From Candidatus Zipacnadia bacterium (GTDB taxonomy: Bacteria; Armatimonadota; Zipacnadia; Zipacnadales; UBA5352): 64,000 nt of DNA. Shown here piece by piece: positions 1-22,715 of the stretch. Each line of letters opens with the position of its first letter. Positions within the stretch are counted from its first letter, which is position 1. Below the pieces are notes generated by a model. It did not search any database, had not been told where the DNA came from, and saw only the letters and a program-made list of their open reading frames with translations. The stretch spans positions 1 to 64,000 of the forward strand of contig JALGUJ010000002.1 of NCBI GenBank assembly GCA_029820945.1, read 5' to 3'. The position numbers were made by a program, and so were the translations under genes.

Positions 1-3000
1 GGGCTGTGCGGCACGGCGCGGCTCGGCGGGGCCATCGACGCGGTGGCGCGATCGCTGCCGGCTCAGGCCGCCGGTCGGGTGGTGGACGAGGCGGCGCGTG
101 AGTGGCTGATGCAGGCCGACCGCCCGGCGGCGGCGATGGCCGCGTGCGCGCGGACGCTCGCGGGCTGGGCGGGCCGGTGGGCGGAGGACGCGGAGGAGAC
201 GGCCGGCAGGCTCGCGCTCACGGCCCTGGAGGCGGCCTCGGCCCTTGAGGATCGGCCTGCCGAGCTGGTGGAGGCCCTGCGGCAGGCGCTGGTGGCGCTG
301 CATCGTGAGGGCCTGAGGGCGGGCGAGCTGGACCGGCTGGCCGAGCATCGCCGCCTCGCGGGGCGACTTCCGGAGCTGCACGAACTGGCCCTGGCGCTGT
401 CGGCGCCGGCTCAGGCTCAGGGGTCGGACGCGGGCGGCGAGGCCTTCGAGTGTTACACGGCGTACCTGCGCGTGCCGAGGGAGCAGCGCTGGGACGGGGG
501 AGACGCGCAGACGCTGGTCATGGATGCGGCGGAGCGGGCCTGTCGCGTGGCGGCGCCGGCGGCGTCGGAGATCGGGCGCCGGCCATGGAACGATCCGGAG
601 CGGCTGCGGTGGAACGAGGCCATGGCGAAGCTGCTGCCCGGGGCCGATTGGCCGCGCCGCAACCTGGCGCGCATCGCGCTGGCGGAGGGCGACTTCGAGA
701 CGGCGGTCACCGGTCTCAGCCCGGCGGAGGCCCCCGGGGCCCTGAGCGTGGCGATGTTCCACCTCGGGCGATGGGACGAGGCCCTGGAGCTGGCCGAGGA
801 GGCGGCCGAGGACGACCCCACGGTGCACGCGGTGCGTGGCATCTGCGGGACATTCGCGCGGCTGCCGCTGGAGCTGGGGGCGCGGTGGCAGGCGGGCGCG
901 GAAGAGCGGGCGGCGGTGGAGGCGGAGCTGTCCGCGGCGGGCGCCGCCGGCTGGCCGGAGGTGGAGGCATGCTCCCTATGGCTGGAGCTGCTGCAGCGCT
1001 CGGCGGCGCCCGGGCCGGAGGACCTGCCAGTGGTTGCGGAGCTGGCCGATGCCGCGTCGGACAGCCGCTGGTCGTCGATCAGGGCACTTGCGGGCCGGGC
1101 GCTGGTCTTCTACGACATGCGGCGGCAGGCGGCCGGCCGCCTGGAGGAGTCGGCCGGGGCGGGCGCGGATGCGGACATGCCGACGCTCGAGGCGCGACTG
1201 GAGGCGGGCCGGCTCGGGGCCCTCGACGCGGACGGCGCCCCGGGGGCGAAGCCGCCGACGCCGGCCGCGCTCGCCTACCAGTGGCGCCTGCTGCTGCGCG
1301 CCGAGGTGCTGATGCAGGGCGAGCGAACACCGGAGGCGGCCGGGCACACGCTGCGGGCGCTCGTGGAGCGATGGCGCGGGGCGCCGGAGCGGGACGGCTA
1401 TGCGGCGTCCGAGAGGCGTCGACTGCTCGGCCGCGGGCTGGCCGCGCTGGCCCGGCTGGGGCTGGCGCAGAATCGCCCGACTGCGGCGGCCGAGCATCTG
1501 GCGGCCGAGGGCATAGAGTGTCTGCCGCAGTGGGAGCTGCACTACCTGCAGTCGTTGTGCGCATGGCAGAGAGGCGATCTCGGGACGGCGCGGCAGGGCC
1601 TGGAGGCGGCGCTGCGGGCGAACCCGGTGCAGCGATGGGTGCGGCAGGAGCTGGGCGTGCTGATAGCGGAAGAGAGCGCGAAGCAGGCGCTGCGGCATCT
1701 CGACTCGGGGCGCGACCGGCCGGCTCTGGCGGGCGCGCGGGCGGCCGCGCTGCTGGCTCTGGGGCGGGAAGGCGAGGCGCTGGAGGCCCTCGAAGCGCTG
1801 GAAGGGCCGTCTCCCGCGGCCTGTCCGCGGCTGAGCTGGCCGGGCGGAGATGCCGCGCGCGTGCGAGAGGGCTGGCGGCTGCGCTCGGAGCTGGCGGAGC
1901 GCCGCCGCGATTGGGCGTTGATGGAGCGCTGCCTCGACGAGGTGCTCGCCGCGGCGCCGGACGACCTCGTGGCCAGGGCGCGGCGCGCGTGGGCGAGGCG
2001 GCAGCGCCTGTGCGAGGGCGAGCCGGGCGACGGCGAGCGACGGCGGCTGGAGGAACTCGTCGCCGGGGACGTGGCCGACCTGTGCGGGCAGACGATGATC
2101 GGTGAGGCGATGTTCTACCGCAGTCGCCTGGTCGCGAACCGCGAGCCGGAGCGGGCGCTGCGCGACCGGCGCGCGCTCATCCGGCAGCGCGACTGGCTCG
2201 CGGCGTGCGGCGATGCGGGAGTGGCCCGTCTGCTCTGGCTGGGCGACCGGCTGCTTGAGCGAGGTGCCTGGGATGACGCGGAGGTCGCGTACCGGCGCGC
2301 GGCCGACCTTGGCGCGGAGGCGCAGGAGCTGGTGGACATCACGCGACTTGGCCGGCTGATGGACGAGCCGGGCGCAATGCAGGTGCAGGCGTGCCGCGAG
2401 GCGGCGGAGCGCAACCCCCGCGGCGGCCTCTGGCCTTTGCTGGGCGCGCTGGCCGCGCTGCAGGAGCGCCCTCCGGGCGTGGAGGCGGCGCGGGAGCTGG
2501 CGGCGGAGGCGCGAGAGCGGGGGGCGGACGCGGCGGTGGTGGAGGCGATAGGTGCCCTCTGCGACGTACTCGCGGGCGACGCCGGGGCGCGAGACGTCCT
2601 CTCGGGTTTGCTGGGCGGGAGCGCTGGCCCAGAGATGCCGGCCGTGGTGAAGGCCGGGCTGAGGCTGCTGGCCTGTGAGGGCGACTGCCTGGCGTGGCTG
2701 TGGGAGTTCCGCGAGCGGGCGGGCGAGGACTGGCCGTCGCTGTCGCCGGTCGATGCGGAGTCGGTGGTGGGCAGGGCGCTGGCGCAGGGCGGTGAAGAGG
2801 AGCTGGGGCGCGCCCTGGAGCTGGCGGAGGACCTCTGCGAGCGGGGCGTGGCGTTGGGGTGGGAGGAGGTCGTGCGGCTCCGGTGCCTGCGGGCCATCGA
2901 GCTGGCGGCCGAGGGGCGCTTTGACGAGGCCGAGGCGATCGCGCGCAGGGCGGGGAGGCTGACCGATGACCGATCAGGCCGGAGGGAGAGCGATGAGGCT

Positions 3001-3006
3001 GTTTGA
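1..3006 (+). CDS. TPR-repeat protein, 5' end outside window
   Basis: The frame is open from the first base, so the gene very probably begins upstream; 1001 residues are visible and the GTG at 43 is only the first start codon inside the window. The protein is almost entirely alpha-helical, rich in Ala, Leu, Glu and Arg, with repeated helix pairs of tetratricopeptide character, for example around residues 245-275 (a GRWDEALELAEEAAEDDP-type repeat), 515-600 and 640-665. No signal peptide or catalytic motif is seen. TPR arrays are protein-binding scaffolds, so it is probably an assembly or substrate-recruiting subunit of the chaperone/GTPase cluster that follows. Its 3' end overlaps the next gene by 14 bases, which implies translational coupling. 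The specific function is unknown. Confidence 0.75.
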   Translation, partial: GLCGTARLGGAIDAVARSLPAQAAGRVVDEAAREWLMQADRPAAAMAACARTLAGWAGRWAEDAEETAGRLALTALEAASALEDRPAELVEALRQALVALHREGLRAGELDRLAEHRRLAGRLPELHELALALSAPAQAQGSDAGGEAFECYTAYLRVPREQRWDGGDAQTLVMDAAERACRVAAPAASEIGRRPWNDPERLRWNEAMAKLLPGADWPRRNLARIALAEGDFETAVTGLSPAEAPGALSVAMFHLGRWDEALELAEEAAEDDPTVHAVRGICGTFARLPLELGARWQAGAEERAAVEAELSAAGAAGWPEVEACSLWLELLQRSAAPGPEDLPVVAELADAASDSRWSSIRALAGRALVFYDMRRQAAGRLEESAGAGADADMPTLEARLEAGRLGALDADGAPGAKPPTPAALAYQWRLLLRAEVLMQGERTPEAAGHTLRALVERWRGAPERDGYAASERRRLLGRGLAALARLGLAQNRPTAAAEHLAAEGIECLPQWELHYLQSLCAWQRGDLGTARQGLEAALRANPVQRWVRQELGVLIAEESAKQALRHLDSGRDRPALAGARAAALLALGREGEALEALEALEGPSPAACPRLSWPGGDAARVREGWRLRSELAERRRDWALMERCLDEVLAAAPDDLVARARRAWARRQRLCEGEPGDGERRRLEELVAGDVADLCGQTMIGEAMFYRSRLVANREPERALRDRRALIRQRDWLAACGDAGVARLLWLGDRLLERGAWDDAEVAYRRAADLGAEAQELVDITRLGRLMDEPGAMQVQACREAAERNPRGGLWPLLGALAALQERPPGVEAARELAAEARERGADAAVVEAIGALCDVLAGDAGARDVLSGLLGGSAGPEMPAVVKAGLRLLACEGDCLAWLWEFRERAGEDWPSLSPVDAESVVGRALAQGGEEELGRALELAEDLCERGVALGWEEVVRLRCLRAIELAAEGRFDEAEAIARRAGRLTDDRSGRRESDEAV

Positions 3007-5011: not shown

Positions 5012-6320
5012 GCTGCTGATGGGACGCTACCGTCTCTACGAGAGGCTGGGCCAGGGGGGCTTCGGGACGGTCTACCGCGCCGACCAGATGGCCTTCGGGC
5101 AGCCGCTGCGCGAGGTGGCGGTCAAGGTCTCGAACCGGCCGCTGACGGCATCGGAGGCGCGAGCCACCTTTGCCGACGCGCTGCTGCTGGCCCGCCTCAG
5201 CGACGACTGCGGCGATCCGACGATCAGGTCGCGCCTGGTCGCGATCCACGACGCGGGGCACTGCGAGGAGGGGCGGTTCGAGGGCCGCGCCTACTGCGTG
5301 ATGGAGCTTGCGCGTGGGGGAAGCCTCAGACGCCGCCTGACCGGCAGGCCCCTGCCGCTGAAGCAGACGCTGCACTACATGTCACAGATCGTGGGGACCG
5401 TGGCCTATATGCACCAGGGCGTCACCGATGGGGATGGGGAGCGGCGACCGATCGTGCATCGGGACGTGAAGCCGTCGAACGTCCTGATCGCCAGGGCCGA
5501 CGCCGAGGCCGGTGCGGGCGAGCAGCTCAAGCTCACCGACTTCGGGCTGGCGGTCGAGGTGGGGCCGATGCTGGGCTGGGCTGAGGCGGGCGGGACGTTG
5601 TGCTACATGGCGCCGGAGTGCTTCACGGAGAAGCGCTGCTCGCCGGCGACGGACGTCTACTCGCTGGGGCTGCTGTTCTACGAGATGCTGACAGGCGTGC
5701 ACCCGTTCGAGGCGGTCGCGGCGCACGTGCATAGCAGCATGGACGAGCGCGCGCCGGAGGTGGAGGAGGCGCACACGCGCGCCCGGCAGCGCGAGACCTT
5801 CGGGCTGCTCGATCGGGCCGCGGAGCTGCGGGAGGAGCCGGAGCTACGCGCGGTCATCCGGCGCTGCCTTGAGCCCGAGGAGGCCGCGCGCTACCGGGAC
5901 GCGCGGGACCTGCTTGCGGACCTGGAGCGCGCGACCGGAGAAGACGAGACGGGGCCGCTGCTGCCGCGGAGCGTCTCCGCGCGCGAGAGGATACTGGCCC
6001 TGGTGGAGCGGGGCTGGCGGCTGCGGGAGCTGGGCGAGCGGGAGGCCGCCCGGGAGGTGGCCGACCGGGCCATGGCGATGAACCGGGACCGCGCGTCGGT
6101 CTCCGAGGAGCAGGCTGTGGGGGAGGCGTATGAGCTGCAGGTGCGGCTGATGCTCGACGAGGGCCAGGTCGAGGAGGCGCGGCTGGTGGCCAACGAGGGC
6201 TACCGGCGCCGCCGCTGCCGGGGGACGTGCCTGGCCGTGGCGATGTGCCTGGAAGAGATTAACTCGCCGGCCGCGAGGGCCTTCCGAGCGGAGGCGCGGA
6301 CGCACCCGCCGGAGCGCTGA
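4992..6320 (+). CDS. Ser/Thr protein kinase with helical C-terminal tail
   Basis: This is a Hanks-type eukaryote-like kinase of 442 residues. All key motifs are present: glycine loop GQGGFGTVY from about residue 20, lysine K45 in VAVKV, catalytic HRDVKPSNVL with D158, metal-binding DFG at D183, and the CYMAPE activation-loop end. The kinase domain ends near residue 310. The rest is helical with a TPR-like pair (about residues 330-430) and no transmembrane segment, so this is a soluble cytoplasmic kinase rather than a PknB-type receptor. GTG 4992 follows a long GGGAGGGAGGGGAGA tract and overlaps the preceding stop by 20 bases; the in-frame GTG at 4968 would lie before this tract. Its likely job is to phosphorylate other cluster members, a frequent arrangement in kinase/chaperone/GTPase loci; the substrate is not shown. 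Confidence 0.9.
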   Translation: MGGTGDELLMGRYRLYERLGQGGFGTVYRADQMAFGQPLREVAVKVSNRPLTASEARATFADALLLARLSDDCGDPTIRSRLVAIHDAGHCEEGRFEGRAYCVMELARGGSLRRRLTGRPLPLKQTLHYMSQIVGTVAYMHQGVTDGDGERRPIVHRDVKPSNVLIARADAEAGAGEQLKLTDFGLAVEVGPMLGWAEAGGTLCYMAPECFTEKRCSPATDVYSLGLLFYEMLTGVHPFEAVAAHVHSSMDERAPEVEEAHTRARQRETFGLLDRAAELREEPELRAVIRRCLEPEEAARYRDARDLLADLERATGEDETGPLLPRSVSARERILALVERGWRLRELGEREAAREVADRAMAMNRDRASVSEEQAVGEAYELQVRLMLDEGQVEEARLVANEGYRRRRCRGTCLAVAMCLEEINSPAARAFRAEARTHPPER

Positions 6321-6338
6321 GGGGGGAGAGAGGGACCG

Positions 6339-7472
6339 ATGAGCGAGGATCTGCGCGAGATCGTGACCGATCTGCAGAGCGCCCTGACCCAGGCCCGCGA
6401 GCTGTCCTGGGCGGCGCGGGGCTGGGAGCGGCTCAACGGCGGCGAGTCGAGTTCGATCTACGGGCCGGCGCCGCACGGCGACGAGGCGCGTGAGGCGTTC
6501 GCGTCGGGGCTGGAGATGCTGGGTGACGAGCCGGCGCTCCTGCATCACCTCGCCGTGGCCGAGCACGCGCTGGCGTGGGATCTGGAGCTGGCGGGCTCGC
6601 CCCAGGCGGCGGATGCGTGGCGGCGGGCGCTGGGCACCTGGCGCCGCCTGCACGGCTGCCCGGAGTTCTGGCAGGCGATGCGGGAGAGGGCCGCCGAGCT
6701 ACAGCCACCGGTCGATCCGGCCGTCGTGGACGAGATCCGGGGGGAACTCTACGACGAGCTGCTCGCGATCCACGTGGCTCTGGTGCGGCATTACTGCGAC
6801 CTGGGCGAGACCGAGCGGGCGCGCACGCACGTCGAGTTCATCCGGTACACGCGCCTGCCACCGGCGGTCTTCAACCAGATGCCGGATCTGCTCTACGAAG
6901 CGATGACCGGGTCCCTGAGCGACCTGGTGGCGAGCCAGGAGTACGACCAGGCGGCGGCGGCGATCGAGCGCTACCTGGAGTTCTACCCGGACAACCTGGG
7001 GGCGCTGCAGACGGTCGCGGAGGTCTTCCGCGATTGGGCACGGCTGACGTCGGTGGCGGACGACTGGCCGACCATCGTGGAGATTGCGCGCCGCGCGGAT
7101 GGTTGGGCCCGCAGGCTGGAGGAGCACGAGGCGCTGGACGAGGCGCCTCTGGCCAGCCTGGCGCTGACGCAGCTTGGGGCGACGCTGGGCCGCAGGTTCT
7201 ACAGGAAGCTCGACCAGGTGTTCGGCGGCGATCCGGAGGCGACGGGCTCGGTCGTGCCCGAGCACCTGTCCTGGTGCAACCAGGCGGTGCGATGGGCCGA
7301 GCTGGCGCACGGCCGCGATCCGGCGCGCGAGTACCTGCTCATGCTGTGCGCGAGTCTGTACATGCGCGCCCGGTGCGCGACGGCGCTGGGCGACACGGCC
7401 CAGGGCCTGAGCGACTTCCGGCGGCACATGCAGCTCCGCCGGCTGATCGAGGGTGAGGAGCAGTCCGAATGA
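6339..7472 (+). CDS. Helical (TPR-like) protein of unknown function
   Basis: A 377-residue soluble protein, almost all alpha-helical, with no signal peptide, membrane segment or catalytic motif that I recognise. Helix pairs around residues 55-110 (YxxLAxAExALAWxxE type), 140-215 and 300-375 resemble degenerate TPRs. It starts at an ATG preceded by GGGGGGAGAGAGGG and lies 18 bases after the kinase gene, so it is probably co-translated. Position between the kinase and the J-like/GrpE/Hsp70 genes suggests a scaffold or cochaperone, but that is inference from context only. Confidence 0.75.
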   Translation: MSEDLREIVTDLQSALTQARELSWAARGWERLNGGESSSIYGPAPHGDEAREAFASGLEMLGDEPALLHHLAVAEHALAWDLELAGSPQAADAWRRALGTWRRLHGCPEFWQAMRERAAELQPPVDPAVVDEIRGELYDELLAIHVALVRHYCDLGETERARTHVEFIRYTRLPPAVFNQMPDLLYEAMTGSLSDLVASQEYDQAAAAIERYLEFYPDNLGALQTVAEVFRDWARLTSVADDWPTIVEIARRADGWARRLEEHEALDEAPLASLALTQLGATLGRRFYRKLDQVFGGDPEATGSVVPEHLSWCNQAVRWAELAHGRDPAREYLLMLCASLYMRARCATALGDTAQGLSDFRRHMQLRRLIEGEEQSE

Positions 7473-7536
7473 CGGGCGGGAGCGTCGGGGCAGAGCCGTC
7501 CGGCCCGTCGAAGGCAGGAGGGTGAGGGCAGTCGCG

Positions 7537-8028
7537 ATGAGGAAGGGCAGCCCGTGGCATCGAGGCCCGCTGACGCGCAATCCGTACTACCACACGGCAT
7601 TCCACGTGCTGCGGATGTCGCCCGCGGTCACTCGCCGCCACGCCGTTCGGCAGCACGTGCTGCAGGCGCGGAACCTGGCCGCCGCCATGCCGGAGGCCCA
7701 CCAGATACGCGGCTGCCCGGTCAGCGAGTCGGAGATCAACGAGGCGGGGGAGGTACTCAGCGACGGCCGCAGGCGGCTCTGGGAGGAGTTGCTGGCGCAT
7801 CGCCCGGAGGATTACCTCACCCCCAGGCTGCGCCGTCTGCGCGAGCGCCTGCGATCATGCGCGCCGCAGGGGGCGGCACCGGAGGGCCCGGCCCCGGTGC
7901 GGCGCCTGACGCTGCTGGCGCACTGGATGAAGCACCTGCTGTCGGAGCGGGCCGGGGAGACCGCTGAGGAGGACCTGATGCGACAGGAGGCATACCGGCC
8001 GATCCCGCCGTGCGGAGGAGGCGGCTGA
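7537..8028 (+). CDS. Degenerate J-domain-like small protein
   Basis: A 163-residue basic, helical protein. Its start is set at ATG 7537 behind AGGAGGGTGAGGG; the frame is open back to 7453 but the extra 28 residues are Arg-rich and look like noncoding sequence. The N-terminus (about residues 13-90) has the layout seen in many divergent J-like domains: an NPYYHTAFHVLRMSP segment in place of the usual N-P-(Y/F)-x-x-L-G-(L/V)-x-x start, then a long helix, then an EAGEVLSDGRRRLWEELL helix like the post-loop region. The HPD tripeptide needed to stimulate Hsp70 ATPase is absent. It sits directly before a GrpE-like gene and a large Hsp70, with a one-base gap to the former. A cochaperone or adaptor role is plausible, but the family call rests on weak pattern similarity. 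Confidence 0.55.
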   Translation: MRKGSPWHRGPLTRNPYYHTAFHVLRMSPAVTRRHAVRQHVLQARNLAAAMPEAHQIRGCPVSESEINEAGEVLSDGRRRLWEELLAHRPEDYLTPRLRRLRERLRSCAPQGAAPEGPAPVRRLTLLAHWMKHLLSERAGETAEEDLMRQEAYRPIPPCGGGG

Positions 8029-8029
8029 C

Positions 8030-8545
8030 GTGGATCCCGCTCTGGAGATTCGGGCCGAGAGACGGTCGGCGGGTGATGGTGTTGACGCCGATGCCACGCC
8101 GATCGCGCTGGCCTGGCACGCGCTGCGTCGGTGGGAGAAGCAACGCGCCAGCCAGCGCGGGGCGCTGGAGGCGGCGTGGAGCAGCGCGCGGCCCGCCTGG
8201 ATCGCGCTTGCCGACGAGTGCCACCGTCTCGACGGTCTTGCCCACCGGCTCCGGCCGGTGCTGGAGGAGGCGGGCGAGGTCGAGGCGCTGAAGGCGCTCG
8301 ACGTGATGGTCTCGCGGCTGCGCAAACGGCTGGAGGACGGTGGCGTGCAGTGCCTGTGCCCTGAGGGCGAGCCATTCACGCCCGAGGTGGGAGAGATCTT
8401 CGAGAGCGTGGCTCAGAAACCGTGCCCCGAAACGAATATACCGGTAGTGCTGGACGTGATCGAGCCCGCCGTCCTGATGCACGGCGCCCTGATCAGGGAG
8501 GGCAAGGCCGTCATCGGGGTTCCGGCGGAAGAGGAGCGCTCGTGA
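8030..8545 (+). CDS. GrpE-like nucleotide exchange factor
   Basis: This 171-residue protein has the GrpE plan: a long helical N-terminal part (about residues 25-100) and a small C-terminal beta domain. The segment LCPEGEPFTPEVGEIF matches the GrpE signature region, where canonical proteins have a P-x-G-x-x-F-D-P-x-x-H-E-A pattern, and is followed by PVVLDVIEPAVLMHGALIRE, equivalent to the strand-rich end that enters the Hsp70 nucleotide cleft. GrpE proteins eject ADP from Hsp70. The usual HEA is changed to GEI, so it is divergent and probably dedicated to the Hsp70 encoded 27 bases downstream. The GTG start has GGAGGAGG upstream. Confidence 0.75.
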   Translation: MDPALEIRAERRSAGDGVDADATPIALAWHALRRWEKQRASQRGALEAAWSSARPAWIALADECHRLDGLAHRLRPVLEEAGEVEALKALDVMVSRLRKRLEDGGVQCLCPEGEPFTPEVGEIFESVAQKPCPETNIPVVLDVIEPAVLMHGALIREGKAVIGVPAEEERS

Positions 8546-8572
8546 GCACGATGTCTACAGGGGCGTGAGGTC

Positions 8573-11127: not shown

Positions 11128-11550
11128 GTGGCGATGTACTCATGTCCGGCCTGCGGGAAAGAGGTTGACGCCGGCGCGGCCCGCTGCCCATGCGGCGCGG
11201 ACCTCACGTTGCTGCGCGACCTTCACGCGCTCGCGGACTCGTGGTTCAACCGGGCACTCGCGGCCGCGGAGGGGAGCGAGTTGGGGCAGGCGCTGGAGCT
11301 GATGGGCGCCTGCTGCGCCGTGCGCCCGCACGACGCGGAGGCGCGATACGTTCTGGCCCAGCTCTACGGGCAACTGGGGCTGGCCGATGAGGCGCAGGCG
11401 GCGCTGGCGCGCCGCCGGGAGCTGGATCCGGCTCAGCCGGGACTGGCGGAGCTGGAGAGGTCGATCGCGCGGCTGCGGGGGCCTGCGGCGCCGCCCAGGC
11501 GCAGCCGCGCATGGCGCGGAATGGGGCACGGCCGGAACGGGAGGGACTGA
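11128..11550 (+). CDS. Zinc-ribbon plus TPR protein
   Basis: A 140-residue protein that begins with a rubredoxin-like zinc ribbon, CPACGKEV then CPCGADL, within the first 30 residues, followed by two TPR-like helix pairs (about 35-115) and a basic Pro/Arg-rich tail. GTG 11128 lies nine bases after GAGGGGAG and is preferred to ATG 11134. The gene ends one base before the next start, so the two are almost certainly co-translated. Ribbon-TPR proteins typically act as adaptors; the Cys ribbon echoes the one in the cluster GTPase. No enzymatic role is suggested. Confidence 0.72.
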   Translation: MAMYSCPACGKEVDAGAARCPCGADLTLLRDLHALADSWFNRALAAAEGSELGQALELMGACCAVRPHDAEARYVLAQLYGQLGLADEAQAALARRRELDPAQPGLAELERSIARLRGPAAPPRRSRAWRGMGHGRNGRD

Positions 11551-13582: not shown

Positions 13583-14281
13583 ATGGTAGGACCCACGGAC
13601 GATGCGCGGCACGAGGAAGGCTCCGCCGTGGAGGAGACGCCTGGCGAGATCGTGGCCGAGGAATCGCTCGGCGAGCAGGAGGGCGTCCCCGGCGCCGGTG
13701 GCGGGGAGGAGGCCGTGGAGCCGGCTGAATGGGGGCCGGCCGAGGACATGTTGCGGTCGCTCGATGAGCAGCTCAGCGGCATCTCGGCCCGGTTGGAGGA
13801 GATGGAGAGCGCCCTCTCCGACATCGCCCGGCAGCAGGGGCTCATGCCGCAGAAGCTGAGGCAGATCGGGCAGCAGGTTGACGACGTGTCGTCCTCGCTG
13901 GGCGCGCCGCGCGTGCGGGACATGCTGCAGAGTCTGCTGCTGCTGCACGATCTGATCGAGAGCATGCACGCGCAAACGCCATGCGAAGACGAGACGAATC
14001 GCAAGAACTACGAGGTGCTGCTGGGCCAGGTGCTGCAGATGCTGGAGGTCAACGGGCTGAAGATGATCGACACGGAGGGCGAGTTCGACCCGAACCTTCA
14101 CCGTCCGGTGGCGGCGGTGCCGTGCGTGAGTGAGGAGGAGGCGGGGCGCATCGTCGAGGTGGTGCGCAGGGGCTTCCGCAGCGACCGGGGCGTACTCCGC
14201 TACGCGGAGGTCGCGGTGACCGAGCACGATCCGGCGGCGGAGGCGAGCGGCGAAGGGGCGGAGACAGGCGACGAGGAGTGA
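13583..14281 (+). CDS. grpE-like: GrpE-family nucleotide exchange factor
   Basis: A 232-residue GrpE homologue, slightly longer than E. coli GrpE (197). An acidic, probably disordered N-terminus (about 1-50) leads into a long coiled-coil helix (about 55-130), then the beta domain with TEGEFDPNLHRPV and RRGFRSDRGVLRYAEVAV, close to the canonical GrpE end. It releases ADP from Hsp70 and has no signal peptide. It lies six bases after the Hsp70-vWA gene and 54 before the third Hsp70, so it could serve either. It is closer to canonical GrpE than the gene at 8030, and the two look like separately specialised exchange factors. Confidence 0.92.
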   Translation: MVGPTDDARHEEGSAVEETPGEIVAEESLGEQEGVPGAGGGEEAVEPAEWGPAEDMLRSLDEQLSGISARLEEMESALSDIARQQGLMPQKLRQIGQQVDDVSSSLGAPRVRDMLQSLLLLHDLIESMHAQTPCEDETNRKNYEVLLGQVLQMLEVNGLKMIDTEGEFDPNLHRPVAAVPCVSEEEAGRIVEVVRRGFRSDRGVLRYAEVAVTEHDPAAEASGEGAETGDEE

Positions 14282-14335: not shown

Positions 14336-15940
14336 ATGGCGACACGATGCGGGATAGACCTGGGCACGACCTACTCAGCGATCTCGTGGTACGACCCACA
14401 CCGTCACATGGTGGAGGCGATCGACCTCGACAGCCAGGATGGGAACGAGCTGCTCAGGTCCGCCGTGTTCTTCGAGCCGGGGGGCAATGTGGTGGTCGGC
14501 GAGGCGGCGGCGCACCAGGCGCGGCAGTACCCGGACCGCGTCATCTTCGAGGTCAAGCGGGCCATGGGGAGCGACTGGACGAGGAACATCGACGGCACGG
14601 AGTACACTGCTCCCCAGATCTCGGCGGAGATACTCAAGGCGCTCGCCGACGACGCCGAAAAGTTCCTGGGCGAGCCGGTGGACGAGGTCGTCGTCACCGT
14701 GCCCGCCTACTTCGGCGACGCCGAGCGCGCGGCCACGAGGGAGGCGGTGGAGCTGGCGGGCCTGGGACGGATCGCCTTGCTTCCCGAGCCCGTGGCGGCC
14801 GCGCTGGCCTTCGCAGTGGACCGGCTGGACGATCTCCTCGACAAGGGGCTGATCGTCTACGACCTGGGAGGCGGCACATTTGACGTGAGCCTGATGCTCG
14901 CGGACTGGGAGGAGGTCGAGGGGCTGATCACCCTCAAGGCCCGGATTGTGACCAAGGATGGCGACCGCAAGCTGGGCGGGGTTGACTGGGACGAGATGCT
15001 CGCGGACATGGTCGCCGACGCCGTGGTCTCCGAGCACGGCTACGACCCGCGCGACGATGCCGCCGACTACGCCACGCTCAAGGAGAACGTGGAGGCCGGG
15101 AAGCGGAAGCTGAGCCAGCTCTCGTCCTTCGACTTTGTCGCGGACCTGCAGGGGCACGTCGTCACGGTGAGCCGGGACGACTTCGAGACGCTGACGGCCT
15201 CCCTGCTGGAGCAGACCGCCACGCCGCTCGACAACGTGCTGGCCAGGGCGGAGCAGCTTGCCGCCGAGACCGGCGATGCGCGGCTGCAGCGCGAGAACAT
15301 CGAGGTGCTGCTCTGCGGCGGCTCCACCCGCATGCCGGCCGTGCATGAGATGGTCGAGGAGAAGATGGGTCGGCCGCCGCTCTCGCACGGCAATCCCGAG
15401 CTTCTCGTCACCATGGGAGCGGCCTACCTGGCGTACCTCTCCGTGGAGGACCTTGAGGAGCCGGTCATGGTCGTCACCGAGGACGAGGAGGGCGGCAGGT
15501 CGCCCAAGGGGCTGGTGCTGGAGCTGGAGGAGCCGCTGGACGTTGGGCTGGCCGTTGGCGTGGAGGTAGTGGAGAACCCGGCCGACGTGGAGCGTGGCGT
15601 CGAGCCCCTGCTGGCCAACGAGGTCGTCATCCCGCAGGACAGCCCCTTCGGCGAGTACTTCGACAGGACCTTCCAGGTGGCCTACGACGGGATGACCGAG
15701 ATCCCGATCATCCTCTACGAGGGCGAGGACCGCGACGTCACCGACCGCAAGCCGCTCGCGGAGCTGTCCATTACCGGCTTCCCGCAGGGGGTGGCGAAGG
15801 GGACTCCGGTCTACGTCAGGCTCGAGTACGACCATGACGGGATCATCCGCGGCGAGGCGGAGGCCGCGGGCCAGAGGCTCGAGATCGAGATCAGGCGCGA
15901 GGGCTCCAGGCTACAGATGGAGGGCATCGCCGAGGCCTGA
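14336..15940 (+). CDS. Short Hsp70 (DnaK-like) without lid
   Basis: A 534-residue Hsp70, about 100 shorter than DnaK. Motifs GIDLGTTYSAISWY, EVKRAMGS, VYDLGGGTFDVSLM and LCGGSTRMPAV define the ATPase domain (about 1-390). The substrate-binding beta domain spans about 405-525, and the protein then stops, so the helical lid is missing. Lid-less Hsp70s bind and release clients faster; here a partner may act as the lid. ATG 14336 has a strong GGGAGG site. The protein closes the Hsp70 block and precedes the FnIII gene by 115 bases, the largest gap since the window start. Confidence 0.92.
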   Translation: MATRCGIDLGTTYSAISWYDPHRHMVEAIDLDSQDGNELLRSAVFFEPGGNVVVGEAAAHQARQYPDRVIFEVKRAMGSDWTRNIDGTEYTAPQISAEILKALADDAEKFLGEPVDEVVVTVPAYFGDAERAATREAVELAGLGRIALLPEPVAAALAFAVDRLDDLLDKGLIVYDLGGGTFDVSLMLADWEEVEGLITLKARIVTKDGDRKLGGVDWDEMLADMVADAVVSEHGYDPRDDAADYATLKENVEAGKRKLSQLSSFDFVADLQGHVVTVSRDDFETLTASLLEQTATPLDNVLARAEQLAAETGDARLQRENIEVLLCGGSTRMPAVHEMVEEKMGRPPLSHGNPELLVTMGAAYLAYLSVEDLEEPVMVVTEDEEGGRSPKGLVLELEEPLDVGLAVGVEVVENPADVERGVEPLLANEVVIPQDSPFGEYFDRTFQVAYDGMTEIPIILYEGEDRDVTDRKPLAELSITGFPQGVAKGTPVYVRLEYDHDGIIRGEAEAAGQRLEIEIRREGSRLQMEGIAEA

Positions 15941-16055
15941 GGGCGTCGTGCGGAGGGGTCGCCCGAGGGCCCGGCGTCGCTTGCTGGAGCCGAAGTCGGC
16001 CCGGGCGTTGGCCGTTCCGGTGCCGGCCGTGAGGTGCGAGCGAGGAGATCAGTCG

Positions 16056-18632
16056 ATGGCACCGCCTGCAGCAGCCGGATCGCGGCTTGATGGCAGGTAC
16101 TCCTGGCAGCAGGTCGTCTCGATCTTCGTCGAGGACCTGGGACTGCCGGGCGTGACCGACGACGCGTCCGCGGTGGCGCAGGCCATCGCCGGCAAGAAGG
16201 ACCGCTACGACAAGATGAAGCAGCACCCCTCCGGCGCGAAGCAGGCGAAGGCCGACGAGTGGTTCGATCGCACCACATGGCTCAAGAACCACCTGGACAG
16301 CATGGTGGCCACGGTCCGCGAGGAGTTCGTGCTGGGCGTGGACGCCATGCTGGACAGCGGCACGACGCAGGTCACGCCGGCCTTCCTCCAGCGACTGCGC
16401 CAGATGGCCGCACGGACCTACAGCGCGGTGGACGAGCTGGCGGACAGATGGGTGAACGGGCTGGTGGCGGAGCGTGGCTGGACGATCGGCGGCGCGGCCC
16501 GCGAGCCGGCGCTGGTGACCGATCTGACCGCCGAGCCGGGTGTCGGGACCATCCGCCTGATGTGGCAGAGGCCCGCGGCGGACTGCGATCGCGTCGTCGT
16601 GCGGCGCAGGACCGGGAAGGCGCAGGCCGGCTCGGCGGTCTCCGCTTGCGAGGTCTTCAGCGGCAATGCCTCCGACTTCATCGACGGGGACGTGGAGCCC
16701 GGCCATTGGTACACCTACGACGTGATCTCCGTGGTGGGCGCGTCCGAGAGCGAGCGGTCGCAGACGGTCTCGTGCCTCGCGCTGGGCGAGGTAAGCGACC
16801 TGCAGGCGGAGTGGACGGAGCAGGGCGTTGTCCTTCGCTGGAGCCCGGCCGAGGGATGCGAGGAGTCCGTGGTGCTGCGCGATGAGGCGCAGGCGCCGCC
16901 GGCGCCGGCGCGGGGAGCGCGCGGGTCGGGCGGCTTCGGTGCACCGATCGGCTGGCGAGGTCGTGGGGGCCGATGGTGTGACGATGACGTGGAGGAGGGG
17001 AAGACGTACTACTACCGCGTCATCGCCCGCTACGACGACGCGTGGTGCTCGGACGGAGTGGTCGCCAGCGTGGGGGTTCCGCGGCGGCCGCCACCGCCGG
17101 GTCCGGTAAGCGCGCAATTCCGCGGCCGCTCGGTGCTGCTCGAGTGGGAGCCCGCCCCAATTGGGGGCAATGCGGAGTACGTGGTCGTGCGCAAGGAGGG
17201 GGCGCGCGCGCCGCTCTCGCCCTCGGATGGCGACGTGATCAGCACGACGCGCCAGCCGGCACATGAGGACGGGACGGTGCGCTTCGGCCGCCGCTACGCC
17301 TACACGGTGTTCACCCGTGATGACGGCCTCACCTCGACGAGCGGCTCGCGCTCGGAGCCGGTGGTGACGGCGGCGGAGGTCACCGATCTCAGCGTCACCA
17401 CCGGAGACCAGTCGGTCGCTCTGGAGTGGGACGTGCCCCCGGGCGTGGCGGAGGTGGTGGTGCGCCGGAGCCGGACGAAGCTGAACGGCCGCGAAGACGG
17501 AGTTCCGGTGCCGGTGCTGGGCAGGAGCCGGGCCTGTGATGAGGGGCTGCAGAACGGGCGCACCTACCACTACCTCATCTGCTGCCGGTATGTGCTGCCC
17601 GGCGGCGAGACGGAGTTCTCGGCGGGCATCACGACGCCCGCCACGCCGGAGCATCCGCCCGACCCTCTCACGGACTTCGCCATCGGGGTTGAGCGCGGGC
17701 GCATTGTGCTCACCTATGAGCCGGTCGAGCACGGGGTGGTGAGCGCCGTTCGCTGTTCGGAGCCGCCGGGCATAGGCTTCGGGCGCCACATCTCAGCCGA
17801 CCGCCTGGCGGACCTGGGAACGGTGCTTGTGCGCGCGAGGCCGGGGCGGATCGTCGATGAGTCGCCGGACGCCGCGGAGCCGCACTACGCGGTCTTCGTG
17901 GTGGCCGGGAAGAGTGCATTGGCCGGGCCGGTCAAGCAGTGCATCGCCGCGCGGCCGGTGACGAACCTGCGTGGCGTGCCCTGCGCGGGCGGCGTTCGCC
18001 TGTTCTGGGACTGGCCCGAGCACTGCAGGAGCGTGAAGCTGGCGCGACGGCGCGGCGCCTGGCCCTCGGGACCCGATGACCCCAGGGCCGAGGTCTCTCC
18101 CGTCTCGCTGCGGCAGTATCAGAACGCGGGCGGCTACTTCTTCGATGAGGTCTCGCCCAGCCCCGAGCCGTACTACTACGTCGCGTACGCACGGGTGTCG
18201 CGGGCGCAGGACGTCGTCTTCGCCTCGGGCGAGACGGCGGGGGAGCGATGCCGTCTGCTGCTGGTGGAGCGGGGCAGGATCACGTACTCGTTCGAGCTTG
18301 TGCGCAGCTTGTTAGGGCTGGGCGCGAGGCGCCTGCGCATCGAATGGGAGTGCGAGCGGCTGCCGGAGGATTTCGGCGGCCTGGTGCTGGTGGGCAACGC
18401 TCACAACGTGCCGAGCGCGATCGAGGACGGCTTTGAGCTGTTGCGGTGGGCGCCACGGCCGGGCGGTGGGCGCGCCGCAGGGCGGCATCGCAGGGAGATG
18501 CCGCTGGACCCAGGCCGAGTTCCAGGCGACCCGCGGCGGCTGTACTGCAAGGCATTCCTGCTCTCGGAGGAGGATCGCGAACGCGTGGTGTTGATGGACC
18601 CCGACGTGTCGCGACCGGTGCACCTGAGATAG
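16056..18632 (+). CDS. Cytoplasmic multi-FnIII protein with helical N-terminus
   Basis: An 858-residue protein starting at ATG 16056 behind GAGGAGA; the frame is open to 15834 but that stretch overlaps the Hsp70 gene and looks noncoding. Residues about 10-140 form a charged helical domain, possibly J-like, with no match I can name. Six tandem fibronectin-type-III-like beta units follow (about 150-750), each with a VTDLxAxxxxxxVxLxW opening and a YxYxVxxxY closing strand. The final 110 residues are a distinct beta domain ending in a basic loop. There is no signal peptide or anchor, so this is an intracellular FnIII protein, probably a rigid scaffold. The GTPase gene begins 24 bases downstream. 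Confidence 0.8.
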   Translation: MAPPAAAGSRLDGRYSWQQVVSIFVEDLGLPGVTDDASAVAQAIAGKKDRYDKMKQHPSGAKQAKADEWFDRTTWLKNHLDSMVATVREEFVLGVDAMLDSGTTQVTPAFLQRLRQMAARTYSAVDELADRWVNGLVAERGWTIGGAAREPALVTDLTAEPGVGTIRLMWQRPAADCDRVVVRRRTGKAQAGSAVSACEVFSGNASDFIDGDVEPGHWYTYDVISVVGASESERSQTVSCLALGEVSDLQAEWTEQGVVLRWSPAEGCEESVVLRDEAQAPPAPARGARGSGGFGAPIGWRGRGGRWCDDDVEEGKTYYYRVIARYDDAWCSDGVVASVGVPRRPPPPGPVSAQFRGRSVLLEWEPAPIGGNAEYVVVRKEGARAPLSPSDGDVISTTRQPAHEDGTVRFGRRYAYTVFTRDDGLTSTSGSRSEPVVTAAEVTDLSVTTGDQSVALEWDVPPGVAEVVVRRSRTKLNGREDGVPVPVLGRSRACDEGLQNGRTYHYLICCRYVLPGGETEFSAGITTPATPEHPPDPLTDFAIGVERGRIVLTYEPVEHGVVSAVRCSEPPGIGFGRHISADRLADLGTVLVRARPGRIVDESPDAAEPHYAVFVVAGKSALAGPVKQCIAARPVTNLRGVPCAGGVRLFWDWPEHCRSVKLARRRGAWPSGPDDPRAEVSPVSLRQYQNAGGYFFDEVSPSPEPYYYVAYARVSRAQDVVFASGETAGERCRLLLVERGRITYSFELVRSLLGLGARRLRIEWECERLPEDFGGLVLVGNAHNVPSAIEDGFELLRWAPRPGGGRAAGRHRREMPLDPGRVPGDPRRLYCKAFLLSEEDRERVVLMDPDVSRPVHLR

Positions 18633-18656
18633 ACGCGCGCGCATCTGGAGGCCGAG

Positions 18657-19766
18657 ATGGGGCTTTTCGGCATCGGACCGCCGACGGAGGTCATCTGTCC
18701 GCACCCCGGCTGCTTCGAGGTGTTCCACCCCCGCGAGGTTCTCTACCGCGATCCCGAGGCGCAGGGCGAGCCGGAGCTCGGCCGGTGGAGCCGGCTGAGG
18801 GGGCTGCGCCCACCGCCGACGCTGCGGGCGGGCGCGGAGAAGATATGCCCATCCTGCAGGCGGCGACTGCCGCGCACGGCGGGGAGCCAGCCCAGCCTGC
18901 TGATCGGCCTGGTGGGTGGGATGGAGTCGGGCAAGAGCCATTACGTGGCGACGCTCGTGCATCAGCTTCGCCACGAGGTGGCTCTCCGCTTCAACTTCGC
19001 GCTCGTGGCGCTGGACCAGAGCACGATGGACCGCTATCGAAGCGAGTTCTACGAGCCGCTCTTCGAGCATCGGAGCCAGATCGACAAGACCCAGGCGACG
19101 GCGGCGCCCCTGCTCTACGAGCTGTCAATCGCCCCGCGCGACGGCCGGGAGCGGCGGCTGAGGTCCGTGACGCTGGCCCTCTATGACACGGCGGGCGACT
19201 TCTTCGAGTCGATGCAGGACGTCGCTACCAACACCCCGTATCTGCGCCGCGTGGCGGGTCTGGTGCTGCTGGTGGACCCACTGCAGATAGCGGAGGTGCG
19301 CGATCATGTCGGCAGCGCGGCGGCACTGCCCCAGGAGCACCCGCGCGGCCGGCCAATGCACGTGATCCAGACCGTGATGAACGAGCTGACGAAGAGCCCG
19401 ACGGCGCAGCCGGGCGCCAGGTTCGAGACTCCGCTGGCGGTCACGGCCACCAAGTGCGACGTGCTGCGGGATGTCGGTCTCATCCCGGGCAACTGCGCCT
19501 GGTCGGATGAGACGGCAGTGCACGATGGGACCTATGACCGGAGGTTGCACGACGCCATCAACGGACTGTTCGCGGAGCGGATTCGGCGATGGGTGCCGGA
19601 CGCCCATCAGACCGTTGCCGTTAGGTTCGCCGACTACGCGTTCTTCGGCATCTCCGCCACCGGCTGCTCGCCCGGTGAGGACAGGCGCTACGACTACGTC
19701 GCTCCGTGGCGGGTGGAGGAGCCGTTGCTGTGGCTTTTGTGGCGGCTCGGGGTACTGCGGGACTGA
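18657..19766 (+). CDS. Zinc-ribbon TRAFAC-type P-loop GTPase (double-GTPase family-like)
   Basis: A 369-residue protein with a split zinc ribbon at the N-terminus (C14 and C19, then C64 and C67) followed by a GTPase domain: P-loop GGMESGKS at 87-94, switch-II/Walker B motif LYDTAGDF with D177 and G180, a hydrophobic VLLVDPLQ strand and guanine-specificity motif TKCD at 265-268. These are the G1, G3 and G4 elements of small TRAFAC GTPases. The ribbon plus P-loop plan and the GAP1-like gene 42 bases downstream match the GTPase called DO-GTPase2 in comparative-genomic work (recalled, not checked). It is cytoplasmic. It probably acts as the nucleotide-dependent switch of the cluster, with the downstream protein as regulator or partner. 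Confidence 0.87.
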   Translation: MGLFGIGPPTEVICPHPGCFEVFHPREVLYRDPEAQGEPELGRWSRLRGLRPPPTLRAGAEKICPSCRRRLPRTAGSQPSLLIGLVGGMESGKSHYVATLVHQLRHEVALRFNFALVALDQSTMDRYRSEFYEPLFEHRSQIDKTQATAAPLLYELSIAPRDGRERRLRSVTLALYDTAGDFFESMQDVATNTPYLRRVAGLVLLVDPLQIAEVRDHVGSAAALPQEHPRGRPMHVIQTVMNELTKSPTAQPGARFETPLAVTATKCDVLRDVGLIPGNCAWSDETAVHDGTYDRRLHDAINGLFAERIRRWVPDAHQTVAVRFADYAFFGISATGCSPGEDRRYDYVAPWRVEEPLLWLLWRLGVLRD

Positions 19767-19808
19767 GGAGCGCGTGGCGCTTGCGAGGGCGCCAAGAGGA
19801 GAGATGGC

Positions 19809-22715
19809 ATGAGGATCCAGCAGATGACCTACACGTCATGCCCGCGGGGCAAGGGGGTGGATGACAGGGACGGCTTCCAGGTGCGCGCCATCTCGCCCGG
19901 CATGACCGATGAGACGCGCGAGCAGCTCCTCGTGCACTGCAAGAGCTATAAGGTGCCGCAGTCCGCCCGGCGGGCGCTGGCCGACCCCACCTGGGACGAG
20001 CTCCCCCCCGAGGTGGCGGCGCAGTTGCCGGTCGTCGTCTCATACTACCCGATCGGTGATGACCTCTTCGCGCTCACGCGCGTGTGCTACGTCGGCCGCG
20101 ACCACTCCGGGCGAGCGGGCAACCTCTTCTCCCACAACCTGGTGTTCCAGCCGGAGGCGCTGGTGCCGGTGGGAGCAAACGCCGTGGCGCTGGCGCGCTC
20201 AGACCTGCTCAAGTCGCGCGACGACGACAGCGGGAGCGAGCTGCCCGAGCTGGAGGACTTCAGGGGGGTGCAGGCGCCCACGAGCCGCGGCTGGCGCGGG
20301 GCGCTGACCCGCAGTCCGTACCAGGAGCACTTCCCCGCCATGGTCTCGGCGGCGGTGAGGGCGCCCGAGGAGGGCCGTCCGGTCATCATCGTGCTCGACG
20401 AGCTGGACATGGCCCTGCCGCTGATCGAGGCCATGCTCATGTCGTTGCCGCCGGAGGCGCGCTGCCGGCTGAGCTTCTGCTCCTACGAGCCCGATCCCCT
20501 GGCCGTGCTCCCGCGACGGGACGCCAGTGCGGACGCGCCCTCGCCGTTCCAGGTGCTGGTGACATCCTCGAGGGCGGAGGGCGGCGGCTTCGAGGGGCTG
20601 CAGGACCATTACGATTCGCAGTTCGCGGTCTTCAACTTCTCCGAGCAGCGGTTCAGCGATCTGCCGGAGGGCACCGCCCGGTGGGCGGAGAGTGCAGCCA
20701 GGGCGCTGGTGAGGTCCGGCGGCGCCGGCCTGAAGGGCTTGCACGATGAGCTGGCCGACTTCCGCGTCGCACGGCGCCCGGAGGTGTGGGACACCATGCT
20801 GCAGTGGGCGTCGCTGGCCCCGGCGCCTGAGGCGGTGAAGGCGCCGAAACAACTTCGCGCGGGCGTGGCCGCGCTGGCCTCGGTCGCCACGGCCCCGGCC
20901 CAGGCGAGACTCGCTGCGGAGCGCGTGTGGCCCTACCTCCAGGCGGCCGCGGGGATCGGCGGGGACTGCTTCGTCGCGGTCGCGCGGGACCACGCGAAGC
21001 TGGTGGACGCCATGGGCGATAGGCTGGCGCGCGAGTGGTGCGGGCAGGAGCAGGTGGTGGACCTGGCCGCCGACGTGCTGCGCGCGGGCAGGGGCGTGGC
21101 CGCCCAGGCGCTGATGCCCGAGAGCGGCGAGGTGAGTGGCGAGCTGGCGTCGCGGGCGCTGGGCAAGCTGGTGGCCGAAGGGTGGCCTACCGCGGATGTC
21201 GCGGGCGCCACGGACACGGACAAGGTCGGGCTCGCCCAGGTGCTTCCCATGGCCATCGACGGCATGCGCGCGCGTGAGGACGAGGGGACGAGCACGTTGG
21301 CGACCGAGGTCCTGGCCCGAGCCGTGGCGGCCGTCTGTGACGCCGGGGCACAGCTCGGCATCATGGAGCGGATGTGGCCGCGGCTGCGGCCGGCGCTGTT
21401 CGACGACCTGCTGCAGCGCGAGCCCGCGGCCGATGCGCTCAAGGCGGCGGAGCTGATCCGGTCCACCCTTACCGCGGGCGCCTGCCCTCAGGCCGAGGTG
21501 GAGCTCGACATGTGGCGACTGCGGGTGCAGGAGCCGAGCACGCCCGGCGAGCAGAGGCGCGCGCTCGCCGATCTGGCGCGCAAGGCGGACCGGACGGACG
21601 ACGAGGAGACCATGAAGTCGTGTCTGGATCTGGCCCGAGAGATCACGCGCCCCGGTGACCGGGAGCGGGTGCGGTGCGAGATGGTGGAGGCGATCGGCCC
21701 GCGCGCCTCCGCCCGGCATCCCTACTACCGCGCGCTGGCCCAGGGCGGGCTGGGCGGTGATGGTGATGCGTGGTCGCGGGCCGAGAGCGCGGCCAATGAG
21801 GGGCACGGGACCTGTCTGGGGATCGCGCTCGTCGAGGTGCTGCCGCAACATGTGGAGAGCGAGGCGATCGTGGACTGGGTCAGGTCGCACCTCCCTCGAT
21901 GCCCCGGCTACAGGGAGGCGCTCGACGGGCTGGCGGTCTTCGTCGCCGATCGGGCACGCCGCGGCAGGCGGCGAATGGGTGACGAGCTGTTCCCGCTTGT
22001 GCTCGACCTGCTGGACGTGATCGCCCCGATGCTCCTCGACCAGGAGCGCGAGGGCAGGGAGCAGGTCTTCGGCCAGGTCGCCCGTGGCCTGGTAGCGGTG
22101 CCGCTCTACCGGCTGCGGCGACGGTGGCGCGAGCTGCTGCAGGAGGCGGACGGCTCCGGCTGGCCGCAGGCGGATCGGGATCGGCTGCTCATTGCGCGCA
22201 CGCTCACAGGCGACATGCGGCCGGCGCTGGGGCGCGGTCGGGCCCGGCAGAACTGGCTGGACGCGACGAGCCGCCTGGACCCGGGCTACTGCGGCGCCGT
22301 CGCCGACTGGCTCACCGAGCACGCCATGGCCTCGCAGGTTCAGAGCCGCTGGCTGGGGGAGGCGCGGGAGGTCTGCCGGCTCTACGGCCGGATGGGCGAT
22401 GAGGCGGGGGCCGAGCGACTTGCCGCGACGCTGACGCTGCAGGTGCAGGGAACCGATGTGGTCAGGCAGGTGCTGGTCATTGCGCCGTTCGCGTTCCTCG
22501 GGGCGATGAGCCGCGATCACGAGGGCTTCCTCGTCCGGGCCCTCGGCCAGCCGCTGGGGGAGCTGAACAGGCAGGCGCGCGCCATGCTCGTGGAGTTCCT
22601 GGCGGGCGCCGCGCGAGTTCCGGAGGACTGGCGGGAGAGGCTGCAGCACTTCTGGCACGAGGTCCAGGCGTACGCACCCCGGCCGCGCGGCGGCGGGTTG
22701 TTCGGCTTCCGCTGA
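19809..22715 (+). CDS. GAP1-like GTPase-associated protein
   Basis: This 968-residue soluble protein has an N-terminal domain (about 1-150) matching the GAP1-N1 pattern as I remember it: a QMTYTSCPRGKG opening, GFQVRAISPGM, and GRDHSGRAGNLFSHNLVF near residues 96-113. Residues about 180-330 are a mixed alpha/beta domain, and the remaining 600 are helical repeats with no recognised catalytic motif. GAP1 proteins are named for their constant association with TRAFAC GTPase genes; whether they activate GTP hydrolysis is not established. The ATG follows GAGGAGA. It is the last gene of the + strand block and faces a convergent gene only 14 bases away. It probably detects a signal and sets the state of the GTPase. 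Confidence 0.83.
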   Translation: MRIQQMTYTSCPRGKGVDDRDGFQVRAISPGMTDETREQLLVHCKSYKVPQSARRALADPTWDELPPEVAAQLPVVVSYYPIGDDLFALTRVCYVGRDHSGRAGNLFSHNLVFQPEALVPVGANAVALARSDLLKSRDDDSGSELPELEDFRGVQAPTSRGWRGALTRSPYQEHFPAMVSAAVRAPEEGRPVIIVLDELDMALPLIEAMLMSLPPEARCRLSFCSYEPDPLAVLPRRDASADAPSPFQVLVTSSRAEGGGFEGLQDHYDSQFAVFNFSEQRFSDLPEGTARWAESAARALVRSGGAGLKGLHDELADFRVARRPEVWDTMLQWASLAPAPEAVKAPKQLRAGVAALASVATAPAQARLAAERVWPYLQAAAGIGGDCFVAVARDHAKLVDAMGDRLAREWCGQEQVVDLAADVLRAGRGVAAQALMPESGEVSGELASRALGKLVAEGWPTADVAGATDTDKVGLAQVLPMAIDGMRAREDEGTSTLATEVLARAVAAVCDAGAQLGIMERMWPRLRPALFDDLLQREPAADALKAAELIRSTLTAGACPQAEVELDMWRLRVQEPSTPGEQRRALADLARKADRTDDEETMKSCLDLAREITRPGDRERVRCEMVEAIGPRASARHPYYRALAQGGLGGDGDAWSRAESAANEGHGTCLGIALVEVLPQHVESEAIVDWVRSHLPRCPGYREALDGLAVFVADRARRGRRRMGDELFPLVLDLLDVIAPMLLDQEREGREQVFGQVARGLVAVPLYRLRRRWRELLQEADGSGWPQADRDRLLIARTLTGDMRPALGRGRARQNWLDATSRLDPGYCGAVADWLTEHAMASQVQSRWLGEAREVCRLYGRMGDEAGAERLAATLTLQVQGTDVVRQVLVIAPFAFLGAMSRDHEGFLVRALGQPLGELNRQARAMLVEFLAGAARVPEDWRERLQHFWHEVQAYAPRPRGGGLFGFR

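Follow-up and report, generated by a model that had tools for sequence, protein, structure and literature searches.

A probable GAP1-N2 double-GTPase operon with an added Clp-type chaperone module in a Candidatus Zipacnadia bacterium

The window analysed here is a stretch of 64,000 nucleotides (nt) from Candidatus Zipacnadia bacterium (assembly GCA_029820945.1) that starts at base 1 of contig JALGUJ010000002.1 (contig C49; 111,920 nt). Its positions 1-22715 are occupied by fourteen open reading frames, all on the + strand, the first of which is truncated at its 5′ end. This operon is probably a GAP1-N2 double-GTPase system of the HSP70/GrpE theme with a second chaperone module added upstream. 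It is best read as a system predicted to serve conflict or quality control, its Hsp70-based remodelling being controlled by a GTPase/GAP1 switch and complemented by an added unfoldase and kinase. The core is taken to comprise Hsp70-vWA, GrpE, Hsp70c, the FnIII-type protein, the DO-GTPase and GAP1, and the upstream module a TPR protein, a single-ring Clp-type AAA+ protein, a Ser/Thr kinase, a further TPR protein, a J-like protein, a weak GrpE-like protein, Hsp70a and Zn-TPR (Table 1). GAP1 proteins found with TRAFAC double-GTPases have reportedly been predicted by comparative genomics to form nucleoside triphosphate-dependent conflict or regulatory systems. The present operon would be a soluble form of such a system, with numerous candidate parts for client handling and Hsp70-vWA as its signature protein, and it makes testable whether GAP1-N2 systems act by protein remodelling and whether the GTPase is the switch.

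The order and spacing of the fourteen genes are compatible with one transcription unit. With corrected starts, intergenic spacing runs from −14 to +64 nt, with the single exception of 115 nt before the FnIII gene; start codons were chosen by the best Shine-Dalgarno or homology support, and several of the mechanical open reading frame starts are probably too early. A scan of positions 3000-22999 gave no sigma-70-like promoter, against 0.6 expected by chance, and three terminator-like sites (2.8 expected by chance), all of them on the − strand and none on the + strand. Rfam and tRNA scans gave no matches. Thus, the fourteen co-directional genes, three Hsp70s and short gaps described in the first-pass annotation are borne out by the open reading frames and Pfam, and so is its statement that none of the products is secreted, as simple hydropathy gives no clear membrane or signal segment in any of the fourteen proteins (highest 19-residue mean 1.76). 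Its list of components fared less evenly: the three Hsp70s, one GrpE, the Clp-type AAA+ protein, the kinase, the vWA domain, the DO-GTPase2 and GAP1 are recognised by Pfam, but the small GrpE-like protein, the FnIII domain and the zinc ribbon fall below the cut-offs. The J-like call is likewise not firmly supported, as the protein lacks the HPD motif, has no Pfam match and was negative by hhalign against one annotated DnaJ-domain protein, while its AlphaFold model has a mean predicted local distance difference test score (pLDDT) of 41 and a fold that is not usable. The residues of functional importance are well established for the Hsp70, kinase, AAA+, GTPase and vWA families, and the motifs sought in the corresponding proteins are all present.

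Table 1. Genes of the operon at positions 1-22715 of the window, with profile support (aa, amino acids).
Gene product	Position	Strand	Evidence and remarks
TPR-repeat protein	1..3006	+	at least 1001 aa, 5′ end missing at contig start; TPR_2 38.7 bits
Clp-type AAA+ protein	2993..5011	+	AAA_2 123 bits, Clp_N 34.6, ClpB_D2-small 22.3; alternative ATG 2966
Ser/Thr kinase	5019..6320	+	Pkinase 130 bits; VAVK, HRD, DFG, APE present
Probable TPR protein	6339..7472	+	TPR matches under threshold; L121 relative E 6e-17, residues 46-237
Small protein, perhaps with a degenerate, HPD-less J-like domain	7537..8028	+	32% identity to same-position L121 protein
Weak GrpE-like protein	8030..8545	+	GrpE 20.2 bits (cut-off 25.8)
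Hsp70a, Hsp70 with unusual C-terminal half	8573..11101	+	HSP70 254 bits; best stretch stops at profile position 373/599
Zinc-ribbon/TPR protein (Zn-TPR)	11134..11550	+	TPR_19 27.2 bits (cut-off 25); Zn_ribbon_3 18.9 bits (below cut-off 27)
Hsp70-vWA (ATPase and beta domains, then vWA in place of the helical lid)	11552..13576	+	HSP70 274 bits, VWA 67.6 bits
GrpE	13583..14281	+	GrpE 55.1 bits (cut-off 25.8)
Hsp70c, short Hsp70 (ATPase domain and part of beta domain)	14336..15940	+	534 aa; HSP70 266.6 bits; last profile match 418-499/599
FnIII-type protein of GAP1-N2 systems	16056..18632	+	start 16056 preferred over 15834; fn3 22.3 bits (below cut-off 25)
Double-GTPase (DO-GTPase2)	18657..19766	+	PF19993 34.5 bits (cut-off 27); G1, DxxG, TKxD motifs
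GAP1 with GAP1-N2 and GAP1-M	19809..22715	+	PF20013 92.0 bits, PF20014 37.4 bits (cut-offs 24)

The DO-GTPase/GAP1 systems were defined by Kaur et al. (2020, eLife; PMC7159879), and the sections of that paper drawn upon here count GAP1-N2 systems in 904 organisms. About 14% of the GAP1-N2 neighbourhoods carry HSP70 and GrpE and about 10% a protein kinase, the two themes being called non-overlapping. The HSP70 type includes an FnIII protein, usually as a fusion with DnaJ or TPR, and a subset has a second HSP70 that lacks the peptide-binding domain; a membrane component is present in 67% of the published systems, and two N-terminal zinc ribbons on the GTPase are usual but not universal. The window resembles this theme in placing a DO-GTPase beside GAP1-N2, an FnIII-type protein, HSP70s and GrpE in one neighbourhood. 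The first-pass annotation knew of no described system with the composition of the operon, but these sections describe this combination. The window departs from the theme by its additional parts: the Clp-type AAA+ protein, the kinase, one more Hsp70 (the third), a weak second GrpE-like protein and the TPR and Zn-TPR proteins. The HSP70-theme text of the paper (section 29) names neither Clp nor an Hsp70-vWA fusion. No experimental test of a GAP1-N2 system was found in searches of open-licence papers.

Other phyla also have the core. A single-sequence GAP1 search of 101 genomes (the host's own and 100 relatives) found the window alone. The PF20013 profile was positive in 7 of 291 host-phylum genomes, 20 of 391 genomes of Clostridia (the class of genome G292) and 10 of 301 in the phylum of Candidatus Chloroploca (that of G293). 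Neighbourhoods were fetched for 19 of the 20 Clostridia positives, for all ten of the G293 phylum and for G291, which was found by DO-GTPase similarity and hence is not an independent draw; G385 was excluded because its match lay below the cut-off. Seven of these genomes hold a strong Hsp70 in the GAP1 locus, namely G291, G292, G527 and G547 in the Clostridia and G705, G807 and G955 in the G293 phylum, a number that is a lower bound, several fetched contigs being under 10 kb. All seven loci contain a DO-GTPase gene, and with profiles built partly from the same rows GrpE was found in six, the FnIII-type protein in seven and Hsp70-vWA in five. By tblastn with the window proteins, the FnIII-type protein was found in five of the seven (not in loci L033 and L104), and in five the alignment extends into the vWA domain; GrpE is Pfam-confirmed in L103 and L085. 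The window FnIII-type protein matches its L102 and L103 counterparts at 1e-39 and 1e-37, and the DO-GTPase, which lies directly upstream of GAP1 with a gap of 42 nt, shares 29% identity with that of L033 (E 9e-37). In G293 itself the sole Hsp70-like gene is divergent and on the opposite strand (2e-21), and it was not counted. Thus, the Hsp70/GrpE/FnIII/GTPase/GAP1 set recurs in unrelated genomes, and this part of the operon does not show the independent scattering of homologues that the first-pass annotation had named as contrary to its proposal.

The other six host-phylum PF20013 genomes show no Hsp70 in the fetched stretch, three of the contigs being just 8.8-15.3 kb. A DO-GTPase scan of named genomes gave at least five loci, in two Clostridia metagenome-assembled genomes, Candidatus Chloroploca mongolica, Nonomuraea candida and Spongiactinospora rosea. 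Three actinobacterial DO-GTPase loci (L030, L036 and L037) showed no Hsp70 match in the fetched stretches. Plasmids searched with GAP1 gave no match, and with the DO-GTPase one distant match in Nonomuraea.

An alignment of six Hsp70-vWA sequences and a model of mean pLDDT 74.9 place the ATPase domain first, then the beta domain and then vWA, and model residues 347-505 are without any helix of four or more residues, that is, without a lid; residues 348-391 and 476-488 have pLDDT under 50, and the predicted TM-score (pTM) of 0.55 leaves the placement of vWA against the other domains unreliable. Foldseek with this model returned mostly DnaK and BiP, including lid-truncated forms, among the best 50 of 1718 matches. 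The fusion is common to L033, L034/L085, L070, L102 and L103, with both HSP70 and VWA Pfam-confirmed in L103 and L034, and it has been seen in three phyla including that of the host. Part of the lid may be retained in the Clostridia versions, because the L034 Hsp70 profile match extends to position 561/599. Among viral contigs, 28 loci match Hsp70-vWA but none beyond residue 491, and hence no vWA is shown there. Of 260 matching plasmid records, one reaches at least 80% coverage (81%), in Acaryochloris, with the Hsp70 in two pieces. The Acaryochloris plasmid clusters are like the window in having TPR, DnaJ-domain, GrpE and Hsp70 genes in a row, and unlike it in that no GTPase, GAP1, Clp or kinase is annotated in the stretches shown. 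They occur on two plasmids of one strain (L031, 4739-9867, and L032, 8535-13745), and in both the Hsp70 match lies in two reading frames.

For the upstream module, most of the genes are also present in one other family of the host phylum. Of the 290 other host-phylum genomes, in each of which four candidates were scored, one (G094, of that family) has a relative matching the Clp-type protein over its full length; in the next best genome the match covers the AAA part alone. Locus L121 of G094 encodes, on the minus strand, TPR-like, Clp, kinase, TPR, small J-like and Hsp70a proteins, the contig ending inside Hsp70a. Order and relative strand are as in the window, with matches for Clp (E 8e-71, window residues 12-662), the kinase (3e-40), the second TPR protein (6e-17) and Hsp70a (2e-61). 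The first L121 gene (989 aa, weak TPR match) occupies the place of the window TPR protein without detectable sequence similarity to it, and J-like and Hsp70a adjoin directly, the window's small GrpE-like gene having no counterpart between them. Because the L121 block also begins with a TPR gene, the operon may start with the window's truncated TPR gene. G094 is not among the PF20013 positives of the phylum, but its genome is only 72% complete. Elsewhere, the Clp N-terminal profile gave one match at E ≤ 1e-8 in 291 genomes of the G293 phylum (6.7e-9, partial), which was taken for an ordinary Clp N-domain. On plasmids, neither the window TPR protein nor the C-terminal half of Hsp70a has a match, and 2269 records match Clp, none with one place covering 80% of the query. 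The recurring Clp/kinase/Hsp70 block merits a survey of its own.

Two further G094 loci hold related proteins. L122 (1085-5994) encodes an Hsp70a paralogue in two reading frames, whose neighbours are a protein with DUF1257 and one of the AAA+ type, which we take to resemble Ycf46, and L164 (7415-9508) encodes an Hsp70 fused to a WD40 beta-propeller, between two proteins labelled as dynamin-type GTPases by sequence reading.

Several AAA+ candidates near GAP1 were set aside. That of L111 is ClpX (zf-C4_ClpX) and was not counted, nor was a similar match in L112; a Clp match of 796 aa in L081 lies about 11 kb from GAP1. The Clp-D2-like AAA+ proteins in the GAP1 loci of G260 and G054 (L014/L015 and L017) stand in a different arrangement, with a DO-GTPase and no Hsp70. 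These host-phylum GAP1-N2 loci also encode vWA-like, radical SAM-like and membrane proteins, as labelled by sequence reading.

Whether the two halves belong together is addressed in part by the Hsp70s. A tree of ATPase domains (19 rows; the cyanobacterial Hsp70 was left out, no start motif having been found in the piece) suggests, without proving, that the halves have different sources. Hsp70a clusters with the Hsp70a proteins of L121 and L122 (support 97/99), and a split with support 97/96 separates the host DnaK from fourteen GAP1-linked Hsp70s, among them the two core Hsp70s of the window. Differing Hsp70 groupings favour the rival explanation that two independent chaperone systems happen to be neighbours, one of them a GAP1-N2/HSP70 system of known kind and the other an unrelated operon of Clp, kinase and Hsp70a, with transcription as the most that they share. 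So do the occurrence of the upstream module in G094, within a phylum set where PF20013 scored only seven other genomes, and the absence of a match to the window Clp or kinase upstream of the core in G291, G527, G705 and G807, where several kb are readable; in the remaining three of the seven core loci the contig ends within about 1 kb upstream. This explanation is nonetheless rather unlikely, for only 1 nt separates the Zn-TPR gene from the Hsp70-vWA gene, the + strand has no terminator-like site, and the G094 contig stops inside Hsp70a in an incomplete genome. The first-pass proposal of one machine is partly supported, by the spacing, which fits one unit, and by the recurring core; the Clp/kinase/Hsp70a half seems to have another history by the tree, stands in G094 without a proven GAP1 half and is unmatched at the four readable loci. 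A single new machine is conceivable, though the joining of its halves is seen in one genome. It is doubtful, though conceivable, that the upstream block is an undescribed chaperone machine, comprising a single-ring ClpB-like unfoldase, a kinase, TPR scaffolds, an HPD-less J-like factor and its own Hsp70, that is plugged into the GTPase/GAP1 switch, so that remodelling would be gated by both GTPase and kinase and might serve to dismantle intruders' protein assemblies.

A number of observations weigh against reading the operon as a GAP1-N2 system of the HSP70/GrpE theme with an added module. Both modules are joined in one genome only, and the bin is contaminated at 7.36%. Relatives have the order GrpE, Hsp70, Hsp70-vWA, FnIII-type, as opposed to Hsp70-vWA, GrpE, Hsp70c, FnIII-type in the window, and the DO-GTPase genes of G705 and G807 are found some kilobases past GAP1. 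The FnIII-type relatives in L103, L034 and L033 show zinc ribbons in Pfam, with no fn3. The window's two core Hsp70s form long branches of unsure place and do not cluster with their vWA and short counterparts. In pairwise identity they come closest to the DnaK of the host itself (39% and 38%), as does Hsp70a (41%). The common membrane component and variable effector of GAP1-N2 systems (PMC7159879, in the sections drawn upon) were not recognised among the fourteen proteins, in which Pfam identifies no toxic effector and the hydropathy maximum of 1.76 marks no clear membrane segment.

When the N-termini of eight FnIII-type proteins were aligned, the first residue alone was invariant, and BLASTP against the L069 N-terminus gave no match. 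The window's FnIII-type protein has no J or TPR match in Pfam, and carries HPS where HPD would stand. The N-terminal region of the GTPase contains the cysteine motifs CPHPGC and CPSC, but no zinc-ribbon match in Pfam.

The Clp-type protein consists of a Clp_N-like N-terminal region and a single D2-type AAA domain, as defined by Pfam, with the Walker motifs and GYVG kept and the IGF/IGL tripeptide absent on motif inspection. Given the presence of GYVG, the absence of IGF/IGL and what is generally held of Clp biology, we infer a ClpP-independent unfoldase. Identity with ClpB was rejected, the protein having one AAA domain and scoring 241.7 bits with TIGR03346 against a cut-off of 1232, and the first-pass label of disaggregase accordingly goes further than the protein's features do. 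The DnaK-DnaJ-GrpE system with ClpB combines an Hsp70, a nucleotide exchange factor and an Hsp100-type ring ATPase. The window has all three kinds of component, but its ring ATPase has a single AAA domain where ClpB has two, none of its proteins is a verified J-domain protein, and the host carries a DnaK elsewhere.

In PADLOC scans of nine of the fourteen proteins, matches fell on the kinase and the AAA+ protein only, those of the kinase including mad6 (182 bits) and PD-T4-6 (157 bits) among the best 25 of 33 families. A Ser/Thr kinase together with a vWA domain recalls the TerY-P triad and PD-T4-6-type phage-defence kinases (PADLOC; PMC11090510, as far as the portion consulted describes them). 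Unlike the triad, the window has no recognised PP2C phosphatase in Pfam scans of the fourteen proteins, its kinase is without a zinc-ribbon or OB-fold match, and its vWA domain is fused to Hsp70.

A mechanism may be proposed for the GTPase/GAP1-governed system. The FnIII, TPR and zinc-ribbon proteins would bind a target, possibly a protein assembly that is foreign or abnormal, and pass it on to the Hsp70s, which GrpE would reset. In Hsp70-vWA, a metal-binding vWA domain would replace the lid and hold client or partner. The GTPase and GAP1 would set the threshold, with the kinase as a second input, and the AAA+ ring would pull the client apart by threading, probably without feeding ClpP because the IGF/IGL tripeptide is absent. 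The most likely outcome is containment or dismantling of an intruder's protein assembly, with a role in proteostasis possible.

Sporadically distributed systems are more often accessory or defensive. Here, GAP1-N2 occurs in 7 of 291 and this Clp type in 2 of 291 phylum genomes, and this distribution together with the published context favours conflict over proteostasis, with the lack of a recognised effector speaking against it. A dedicated cellular machine for quality control, disaggregating proteins under heat or other stress with no role in conflict, would account for the recognised parts being chaperones, scaffolds and regulators, and for there being no nuclease, pore or peptidase domain in Pfam scans of the fourteen proteins. 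The sporadic distribution argues otherwise, and because a separate DnaK and Clp-type gene (818-codon frame) are already present on contig C162 of the bin, the chaperone set of the operon is an additional one; the quality-control explanation is held to be a tentative possibility.

Finally, the operon could be real but its host wrongly assigned through misbinning of contig C49. The source bin (5.35 Mb, 203 contigs) is 90.7% complete, and its 7.36% contamination is compatible with such an error, as is a gene further along the window. This gene, for an FAD-dependent oxidoreductase at 28711-30115, shares about 90% DNA identity with two contigs of G026, from another family of the order, as if moved alone, while its best own-family match is about 37% at the protein level. 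However, only this gene shows the high identity, the flanking DNA being unmatched in the two stretches that were compared, which fits a one-gene transfer. The guanine-plus-cytosine fraction of the window (0.698) also resembles the values of five short loci from the bin's other contigs (0.687-0.72). Misbinning is considered very unlikely. Downstream of the operon, at 22730-49188, the window encodes several carbohydrate-binding modules, CBM9 among them, and GH42-type glycosidases.

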